Shown piece by piece: positions 12,468-15,024 of a stretch of 47,993 bases of DNA. Both the position numbers and the translations under genes were made by a program. The stretch spans positions 1 to 47,993 of the forward strand of contig JAIKZX010000016.1 of NCBI GenBank assembly GCA_024681935.1, read 5' to 3'. Below the pieces are notes generated by a model that did no database searches, was not told the DNA's origin, and was given only the letters and a program-made list of their open reading frames with translations. Position 1 is the first letter of the stretch, and each line of letters starts with the position of its first letter. Source of the stretch: Fretibacterium sp. (GTDB lineage: Bacteria; Synergistota; Synergistia; Synergistales; Aminobacteriaceae).

Positions 12468-13034
12468 TTATAGCAAACCCAGACTCATTATCCCGGCCTC
12501 TCCCTTTGCACACCGTGCAAGACCGGCTATGCACTCAACCGCCGCGTCCGCGGCCCCGGCAAGGCGAACATGGAGCCTTCCCAAAAGACGACGGTAGTTC
12601 TCCGTCACTTCATCATAGGCAACACCGTCAGAGAAGATGTCGTCAGAGACAATCAGCAGATGACGGCAGCGTTCCTTCAGCGCCAGCGCCGTTCGAAAGA
12701 TTTCCTCTTCCAGCCTCACAGCTCCGATTATACTTCCATCCTCGGGAAACATCTCGTTGGCCAGCCAGTTAGGCAGGCACTCCAGCAAAACCGCCGCGTT
12801 CGCCGGAATGGCGTGAAAAATACCCCACAAATCCCGGGGACGCTCCAATGTCAGAAATCCCCGTCCACTGCGGGCTTTTTGATGCCGGGCCACACGGCAG
12901 CGCATATCCTCATCAGCAATCCGGGCAGTAGCAAGATAAATCCGCGGGTTGTCGCGGGACAGGATCAGAGCCGCTTGCTCGGCCCACTCGCTCTTGCCGC
13001 TGCGGACTCCCCCCGACACAAAGATAAACATCAC
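12468..13034 (-). CDS. cobU: Adenosylcobinamide kinase/guanylyltransferase-like protein
   Basis: P-loop SGGVRSGKSEWAE, YLATARIADEDMRCRVARHQKAR, LLECLPNWLANEM. The C-terminal SNEVGxGIVP motif is diverged (SDDIFSDGVAYDEV). Confidence 0.88.
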   Translation of the reverse strand: MMFIFVSGGVRSGKSEWAEQAALILSRDNPRIYLATARIADEDMRCRVARHQKARSGRGFLTLERPRDLWGIFHAIPANAAVLLECLPNWLANEMFPEDGSIIGAVRLEEEIFRTALALKERCRHLLIVSDDIFSDGVAYDEVTENYRRLLGRLHVRLAGAADAAVECIAGLARCAKGEAGIMSLGLL

Positions 13035-13085
13035 AGGCCCCTTTTCATGTAGAATAAGGGGGATTTCAGCATTACAAACAAGGGG

Positions 13086-13847
13086 GTGTGTACCATCGAT
13101 ATCATCCGTTCTTTTTTAATTGCCTGTTCCTTCCTTACAATTTTACCCGTTCCAGGGGTGGAGTGGAAGGAGCAGAACATCCGTTTCTTCTGCCTCGCGA
13201 TTCCCGTTGTAGGGTGTCTCCTGGGAGTGCTTTGGGCGCTGGGCTTCGCTTTGCTCCTTTGCTGGGATGCCTCACCACTCCTTCGGGGCGTGGTTATGAC
13301 GTTTGGAACCCTGACGCTGACGGGGGGACTGCACATGGATGGGCTCATGGACACCTGTGACGCTATCCTCTCCCGTCGGGACAGCGAAACGCGGCTGAAA
13401 ATTTTATCCGACACGCACGTTGGCGCGTTCGCCGTCATGGGGTGTGTCATGACATTAATCCTAAAGAGTACAATTTTTGCGGAGTTTTTCACAATCTCAT
13501 CCTCCAGACTTCCACTATTATTGCCCCTCATCCCCATCTGGTCGCGGCTGGGCATGGCGCTGCTGTTGAACATTCTGCCCTTCGCCCGCCAGGACGGTCT
13601 GGCCCGAACGCTTGGCGCATCCCGAACACCGCACCATTCCGCCCTCCTCATCATTGGGGCGTTGGTCCTTGCAGCGGTGAACCTGTGGACAGCTGCGGCC
13701 TGGGTCCCCATCGTCTGTGGCGTCTTGTTTCTCCTTTGGCGACGATGTTGCCTCTCCCTCTTCGGAGGGATCACGGGAGACCTCCTCGGGGCCTTTGCTG
13801 AGCTCTCTGAGACGGCGCTGCTCCTTACATTAAGGGAGGCCCTGTGA
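13086..13847 (+). CDS. cobS: Adenosylcobinamide-GDP ribazoletransferase
   Basis: FLTILPVPGV, LTGGLHMDGLMDTCDAILSRRDSETRLKILSDTHVGAFAV: CobS signature. GTG start. Confidence 0.94.
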   Translation: MCTIDIIRSFLIACSFLTILPVPGVEWKEQNIRFFCLAIPVVGCLLGVLWALGFALLLCWDASPLLRGVVMTFGTLTLTGGLHMDGLMDTCDAILSRRDSETRLKILSDTHVGAFAVMGCVMTLILKSTIFAEFFTISSSRLPLLLPLIPIWSRLGMALLLNILPFARQDGLARTLGASRTPHHSALLIIGALVLAAVNLWTAAAWVPIVCGVLFLLWRRCCLSLFGGITGDLLGAFAELSETALLLTLREAL

Positions 13848-14227
13848 TGCACCTGATCCTCGGCGGACGGTACATGGGCAAGCTCGCCTGGGCGGAATCC
13901 CTTTATGGGCCCTTCAGAACTATTTGCGACCTCGCGTGCGAAGCCCCGGAGGGCATCGAGGGAGCCATGGCTGTTCTCAACCTCCAGGCCGGAGTCCGGA
14001 CGCTGCTCTCACGGGATGAGGATGTGCAGAAGTTCTTCGACACGCGTTTATCCTCGCTTCGTGATTCCGTTCTGATTGGCGACGAGGTGGGAGAAGGAAT
14101 CGTTCCTCTGGATACTTTTGAGCGGCGCTGGCGGGATGAGGTGGGGCTTCTCTATCAAATGCTGGCGCGTGAGGCCGACATGGTAGATCGTGTCTGGGCG
14201 GGGCTTGCTATTCGGCTGAAAGGTTAG
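13844..14227 (+). CDS. Short CobU-related protein
   Basis: HLILGGRYMGKLAWAE (degenerate P-loop) and a canonical CobU-like C-terminus GDEVGEGIVPLDTFERRWRDEVGLLYQMLAREADMVDRVWAGLAIRLKG. Start overlaps the cobS stop. Confidence 0.8.
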   Translation: MMHLILGGRYMGKLAWAESLYGPFRTICDLACEAPEGIEGAMAVLNLQAGVRTLLSRDEDVQKFFDTRLSSLRDSVLIGDEVGEGIVPLDTFERRWRDEVGLLYQMLAREADMVDRVWAGLAIRLKG

Positions 14228-14241
14228 TACAGGTTCATACT

Positions 14242-15024
14242 ATGGAACATAAATATATCTTCTTTGACATTGACCATACGTTGGTCAGTCACGTAGGCAA
14301 AAGTCACATCCCACCGGAAACGCGGGAGGCCGTACGCCTCCTTCGTGACTGCGGGCACATCCCTGCCATCGCCACGGGACGCGGGGCGTTCCTCGCCCAA
14401 AAGGTTGCGGACGAACTGGGAATAGGCCTTTTAGTTTGTGCCAATGGAGCACAAATACTGAATGGAGGGAAAACACTGTACTCGGTTCCGTTTCCTGTCC
14501 GCCTCCTCGAATCCTTCCGTGAGGTGGCGGGACGTTTCCCTGAGTCAGCGGCTGCACTGGATGAGCGCTTTCTCTATACGTCCAGTAAAAACCAGGAATT
14601 AAGAGAATACTTCAACACGCAGGCGGGCTACCCCTGTGTCCGTCCTCTTGAGGATATGACCGGCGCTCTGCTTTGTTATCTGATGCTGCCCCCTCCCCTG
14701 CCTGAAGGCTGCGGTCTCTTCTCAAGCCCGCCAGGCAGCGTTCTGCTGGAACCCATGAGCCACTTTGTCGAAGCCCGTGCTGCGGGGACTTCAAAATGGC
14801 TGGGGATAGAGCGCGTCCTCGAACACTTAGAGGCAAGCATTCAGGACGTGGTTACTTTTGGCGACGGGCCTAACGACGTGGAGATGCTGCGCAGTGCTCC
14901 TGTGAGCGTAGCTGTCGGCAGGGCACAAGATCAGGCAAAGAAAGCCGCGAAGTTCCTTGCTGAGGATATCGACGAGGGCGGCATCCTGAAGGCTTGTCAG
15001 GATATTGGGCTCATCCCGGCATAA
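14242..15024 (+). CDS. HAD superfamily (Cof-like) hydrolase
   Basis: IFFDIDHTLV, IPAIATGRG, DVVTFGDGPNDVEMLRSAPVSVAVG. Confidence 0.92.
   Translation: MEHKYIFFDIDHTLVSHVGKSHIPPETREAVRLLRDCGHIPAIATGRGAFLAQKVADELGIGLLVCANGAQILNGGKTLYSVPFPVRLLESFREVAGRFPESAAALDERFLYTSSKNQELREYFNTQAGYPCVRPLEDMTGALLCYLMLPPPLPEGCGLFSSPPGSVLLEPMSHFVEARAAGTSKWLGIERVLEHLEASIQDVVTFGDGPNDVEMLRSAPVSVAVGRAQDQAKKAAKFLAEDIDEGGILKACQDIGLIPA

Follow-up and report, generated by a model that had tools for sequence, protein, structure and literature searches.

Why should a bacterium encode two members of the CobU family on either side of cobS, each seemingly lacking what the other retains? The question is raised by a contig of 48 kb from a Synergistota genome resembling Fretibacterium (JAIKZX010000016.1; the window, in what follows, is this whole stretch). 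There, a minus-strand gene for a 187-amino-acid protein, here called L (12468..13031), and a plus-strand gene for a 126-amino-acid protein, H (13847..14227), flank cobS, the gene for adenosylcobinamide-GDP ribazoletransferase (13086..13847, plus strand; PF02654, 162 bits). CobU phosphorylates adenosylcobinamide (AdoCbi) and transfers GMP via His46. An initial annotation placed both genes where we find them, quoted their motifs correctly and suggested that they either form a hetero-oligomeric CobU or divide its two activities between them. From the evidence below, we consider it likely that L and H together make up an obligate hetero-oligomeric CobU, L as its catalytic-type and H as its non-catalytic-type subunit.

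This reading is carried mainly by the way in which the residues of CobU are shared out between the two proteins. Residue numbers are those of Salmonella CobU, which is guanylylated on His46 (Thomas et al., 2000, as cited in PMC4626045). We aligned 99 canonical CobU proteins, 56 L sequences, 63 H sequences and the copies from a Synergistota genus designated g36, and then 94 genome-matched L/H pairs drawn from Synergistota, Clostridia and Bacilli. Thirteen core residues are near-invariant among the canonical proteins, 75 of the 99 having all of them; pooled, the two partners supply the complete set in 89 of the 94 pairs, and neither L nor H supplies it alone in any. L retains Lys12, Ser13, Arg42, His46, Arg50 and the acidic residue at position 80 in 93-94 of 94 (Lys12 and the 42-50 residues in 94, Ser or Thr at 13 in 93). 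H retains Lys12, but the entire 42-50 block is gone (L/H counts of 94/2 for Arg42, 94/1 for His46 and 94/0 for Arg50), and position 13 is Thr in 14 pairs and Ser in none, the Ser having been replaced in every lineage sampled. Past Walker B the roles are exchanged: in the conserved block that comes after the core strand, H keeps Gly139, Pro142, Arg148, Arg151, Asp152 and Gly155 in 93-94 of 94 and Gln159 in 90, whereas L has Gly139 in 9, Pro142 in 17 (94 in H), Arg148 in 5 (93 in H) and Asp152, with Asp or Glu counted, in 8 (94 in H). Arg148 is invariant in canonical CobU (99/99). Because the same pattern recurs in 94 pairs from Synergistota and two Firmicutes groups, the partition is far beyond chance, and because the invariant residues missing from one protein are those that the other has kept, L and H most likely function only together. 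The earlier claims about the P-loop and His region of L, about their loss from H, about the near-consensus C-terminus of H and about the reciprocity of the two genes are thus borne out well beyond the window.

On the contig itself, L displays the intact P-loop GGVRSGKS (12990..13013, minus strand) and the RxxxHxxxR block (12870..12896, minus strand), with His50 of the protein aligning with Salmonella His46, and has SDDIFSDGVAYDEVTENYRRLLGRLH (12570..12647, minus strand) where NEVGxGIVP...RxxRDxxGxxNQ would be expected. The latter is found intact in H as IGDEVGEGIVPLDTFERRWRDEVGLLYQ (14075..14158, plus strand), which includes Pro142, Arg148, Arg151, Asp152, Gly155 and Gln159 (counted from the ATG of H, Arg148, Arg151 and Asp152 are Arg93, Arg96 and Asp97); at its other end H bears the P-loop remnant GGRYMGKL (13862..13885, plus strand), in which Lys is kept and Ser/Thr is gone. 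The initial annotation called the C-terminal motif of L degenerate, which has to be corrected: it is re-specialised, with a family motif of its own, S[ND]DIFSDGxxYxxxTExYxxxLGxLH, and with Glu89 in 28/28 and Glu170 in 27/28 Synergistota L proteins. Similarly, the P-loop Ser of H is lost as was stated, but the N-terminus is a genuine conserved GGxYMGK strand-loop with its Lys and not mere degeneration. The residues gained as family features are Phe137, Asp139, His158, Glu89 and Glu170 in L and Trp150, Trp172 and Arg170 in H, with Bacilli being more variable at several of these positions.

Both proteins are recognisably CobU, and neither matched any other family. Against PF02283, L scores 127.3 bits (gathering score 27) over profile positions 1-165 of 168, and H scores 43.8 bits over positions 101-168 only; a profile built from 63 H sequences nevertheless aligns to the entire CobU structure 1c9k (E 8.7e-15, 1-128 against 1-180), and the window H matches the A2 profile with 170 bits over 1-128. 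Having the GxxxSGKS P-loop, His46 and Arg42/Arg50, L qualifies as a CobU, and it is not filed as a canonical one since its C-terminal block is mostly lost; both L (106 bits) and H (51.9 bits) fall below the cut-off of 161 of the NCBI equivalog for bifunctional CobU, PRK05800.1. AlphaFold2 models of the window proteins have a mean predicted local distance difference test score of 96.3 for H and 94.7 for L, and in a Foldseek search of the PDB the top matches of both proteins are CobU structures (template modelling score 0.7-0.8 for L, for which RecA, KaiC and F1 are also listed). With a confident model and CobU structures leading its matches, H is a complete small domain rather than a fragment. 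Both L and H are under purifying selection, pairwise ratios of nonsynonymous to synonymous substitution (NG86) being about 0.11-0.27 among close relatives.

Is the pair found where a canonical CobU is not? A first PF02283 search of 61 relatives revealed two genome states, namely either one high-scoring CobU or a low-scoring CobU accompanied by a short partner with only the C-terminal part. Across 188 Synergistota genomes, L and H co-occur: 48 encode both, 6 have just L, 3 just H and about 80 just a canonical CobU, and H is never combined with a canonical CobU (0/188). The annotation had also regarded absence of the short gene from relatives with working B12 salvage as damaging to its proposal; this has to be reworded, because the genomes without H are precisely those with a complete CobU. 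When named genomes were scanned, H also turned up in Peptococcaceae, Gracilibacter, Peptostreptococcaceae and Bacillaceae, with an adjoining L-type gene at every locus except L091, a 3-kb contig from a genome with a gene of L-type score at another location. Among 141 Bacilli genomes sampled, H was present in 20/20 with an L-type gene and in 0/63 with a canonical CobU, and in a larger Bacilli sample all 39 of 39 further H genomes carry L within 5 kb. Canonical CobU is the rule among 130 genomes of the Clostridia phylum, in which L/H pairs are rare (G188, G224). These surveys confirm that the L/H system is conserved and more than a local oddity.

A parallel case is provided by six genomes (G124-G129) of g36, which have no H. 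Here, copy B (six copies), whose gene precedes cobS and cbiB, falls in the L clade on a 96-starred branch; it retains the P-loop, Arg42, His46 and Arg50 and is without Arg148, Arg151, Asp152, Gly155 and Gln159. Copy A (five copies) lies across a 99-starred branch in the canonical clade, where it groups with Synergistota CobU, and it is encoded away from the cob genes, next to a uracil-DNA glycosylase gene. Copy A has lost Lys12 (now Ala), Arg42, His46 (now Tyr) and Arg50, and in 5/5 it retains Arg148, Arg151, Asp152, Gly155, Asn158 and Gln159. A complete CobU residing beside an L-type gene has thus lost just those residues that L supplies, and we regard this as the same division reached independently from a different starting gene. 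The match is close yet imperfect, as Pro142 is missing from both copies.

Do the two proteins touch? Position 170 of L covaries with position 170 of H: Glu goes with Arg, Gln with Tyr, and hydrophobic residues mostly with hydrophobic ones, and two separate Glu-to-Lys changes in L are each accompanied by loss of the Arg in H. By weighted mutual information with average product correction, this column pair ranks 2 of 12,994, and tree-based contrasts put it at the top among 52 H columns; it stands out less clearly in unweighted plain mutual information. The covariation is weakly suggestive of a direct L-H contact, and a pseudo-symmetric ring would give such a contact between equivalent positions.

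How might two incomplete proteins make up one enzyme? Salmonella CobU is reportedly a trimer, and with CobU being a trimer of RecA-like domains, completion of the active site in trans is the simplest geometry. We envision L as binding the nucleoside triphosphate at its intact P-loop and bearing the guanylylated His, and H, a catalytically dead paralogue devoid of the nucleotide and His parts, as presenting the C-terminal block missing from L, GxGIVP...RxxRDxxG..Q. This block would act across the subunit interface, such that Arg and Asp of H complete the site of L, and the assembled complex would have AdoCbi kinase/AdoCbi-phosphate guanylyltransferase activity. The product, AdoCbi-GDP, would then pass to CobS, to which H is very probably translationally coupled. 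In evolutionary terms, it seems fairly probable that a one-gene homo-oligomer became an obligate two-subunit enzyme comprising a catalytic subunit and a dead, interface-completing one. The dead role would have been filled twice, by the H family in Synergistota, Clostridia and Bacilli and, in g36, by a resident complete CobU from which the P-loop Lys and the catalytic His disappeared once an L-type gene had arrived.

What else could account for such a pair? L, its C-terminus remodelled, might suffice as a CobU by itself, and H might be an accessory or regulatory protein, such as an adaptor tethering L to the membrane enzyme CobS. It is cobS and not L to which H is coupled, and in most loci of Synergistota and Clostridia H sits directly behind cobS; L is located elsewhere in the genus g16, and the C-terminus of L has a strongly conserved motif and hence is functional. 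However, a pure adaptor would have no need to hold Pro142, Arg148, Arg151, Asp152 and Gly155 almost without exception while L loses most of them; moreover, copy A of g36 descends from a complete CobU and still has most of this block, and the presence of H follows L, not cobS. We therefore judge an adaptor role to be rather unlikely. The new family residues of L (Phe137, Asp139, His158) and H (Trp150, Trp172) might instead indicate that the pair took on a different cobamide substrate or function, such as another corrinoid or nucleotide, and does not replace CobU. But H and canonical CobU are mutually exclusive, and genomes with the pair encode CobS, which needs AdoCbi-GDP, making this proposal quite improbable.

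Even less can be said for the second suggestion of the initial annotation, in which one gene provides the kinase and the other the guanylyltransferase. CobU is bifunctional (O'Toole, 1995, listed as reference 138 in PMC7242693), and most Synergistota genomes with the pair encode CbiB, so that the kinase is perhaps dispensable in de novo synthesis. Yet the known residues for both reactions, the P-loop Lys and Ser as well as His46, are all on L, and H, without the P-loop Ser and the His, can hardly run either reaction alone; on these residues we rejected the division, which is very improbable, and retained the hetero-oligomer. With CbiB present in most of the Synergistota genomes concerned, the pair may or may not have kept the kinase step. 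It is barely credible that H is a decaying duplicate of a diverged CobU and that the complementarity merely reflects relaxed selection. H is short and overlooked by some models, and L scores under the equivalog cut-off, but the substitution ratios, the conservation of a 126-amino-acid domain in Synergistota and two Firmicutes groups, the confident fold of H and the strict co-occurrence of the two genes speak against decay, and selection and co-occurrence have in the main refuted it already. A pseudogene or a chance resemblance was rejected on selection, fold and co-occurrence. A single cobU broken by a frameshift or fragmentation is likewise excluded, given that L and H face opposite ways, are separated by cobS and have a start each.

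Some observations weigh against an obligate L/H enzyme. Six Synergistota genomes have L only and three H only; in one of them, G003, the lone L lies no more than 850 bases from where its contig stops, which explains it, and we tentatively put the others down to draft assembly. The Synergistota genomes are related to one another, and Fisher p values overstate their independence. In g16 (L067, L069, L082-L089 and others), the largest genus of its family, L is away from cobS and H, although H usually still lies behind cobS. The sign test on the tree-based contrasts for position 170 is consistent in direction but, with 4 independent contrasts, not significant (p 0.25). Finally, if L and H formed a 3-fold ring, only one L-to-H interface would be competent, so that any stoichiometry is tentative.

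In the window, L, divergent from cobS, starts at ATG 13031, with GTG 13034 being possible, and its product is 89% identical to the L protein of a rumen Fretibacterium sp. (contig L051 = G001:C37, listed L126). For H, ATG 13847 is the best start, ahead of the alternative GTG 13844. Given the good Shine-Dalgarno sequence AAGGGAGG (13832-13839, plus strand), seven bases 5' of this start, and the TGATG overlap of the cobS stop with the H start (13845-13849, plus strand), H is very probably translated and coupled to cobS. A Cof-type HAD-IIB phosphatase gene immediately 3' of H (14242-15024) is, as far as seen, outside the L/H system, although a role in cobamide metabolism, such as that of the missing CobC, is conceivable. 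The 5' end of a 16S rRNA gene lies at the contig edge (1-141, minus strand; RF00177), and no Rfam riboswitch is present in the window at gathering scores.

L, cobS and H are grouped in most loci outside g16; at two g16 loci, L is found among genes for an ABC transporter, ZnuA and an FAD protein. In Bacilli, the pair is found in cobalamin nucleotide-loop operons (aminotransferase, L, CobQ/CbiA-type gene, cobS, histidine phosphatase, H and adenosyltransferase), and on a Cytobacillus spongiae plasmid the pair is inside a corrinoid uptake and salvage operon. Other CobU arrangements were also encountered. Six Bacilli genomes of 6.5-7.3 Mb (G258, G394, G408, G419, G441 and G452) encode a second full-length CobU-like paralogue of 61-64.5 bits alongside a canonical CobU of at least 190 bits, and two Synergistota genomes, G064 (L042) and G132 (L050), have two near-canonical copies each. 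In G197:C51, G417:C1 and G252:C1, the CobU match is broken in two, the profile halves overlapping or being set apart by a gap or an insertion, possibly owing to insertions or frameshifts in an otherwise canonical gene. Weak H-like matches on two Novosphingobium plasmids (NZ_CP117418.1:22354-22839 and NZ_CP117882.1:52041-52526), where PLSDB lists no gene, are probably the C-termini of canonical CobP.

If L and H work as we propose, then the B12 nucleotide-loop step is predicted to require two genes in many rumen, oral and soil bacteria. Current annotation masks the split: RefSeq names both L and H of Cytobacillus spongiae 'bifunctional adenosylcobinamide kinase/adenosylcobinamide-phosphate guanylyltransferase', and pathway reconstructions would count either one as CobU. 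The pair also offers a clean natural test of CobU residues acting in cis or across a subunit interface, and a worked case, repeated in parallel, of how complementary losses convert a homomer to an obligate heteromer.

How does this arrangement relate to known systems? The CobU family is known and the two-gene form is the new part; the literature searched, subscription literature aside, holds no description of a split, paralogous or hetero-oligomeric CobU. The archaeal GTP:AdoCbi-phosphate guanylyltransferase CobY likewise makes AdoCbi-GDP (PMC4626045), but is described as non-homologous and single-function. Much closer are CobU and CobP themselves (PF02283; Salmonella structures 1cbu and 1c9k), with which L and H share family, fold and cobS neighbourhood, and whose near-invariant residue set is complete when the two are pooled; there, a single polypeptide forms a homo-oligomer, whereas here the residues are split over two paralogues, one of them without the His block. 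In F1-ATPase, the non-catalytic alpha subunit gives an arginine to the catalytic beta subunit. Although enzyme and reaction are unrelated, and a trans role of Arg148 and Arg151 of CobU is our conjecture, F1-ATPase and other hetero-oligomers of the RecA fold would resemble the L/H pair in combining a P-loop RecA-like fold, a catalytic and a non-catalytic paralogue, and an Arg on the dead subunit.
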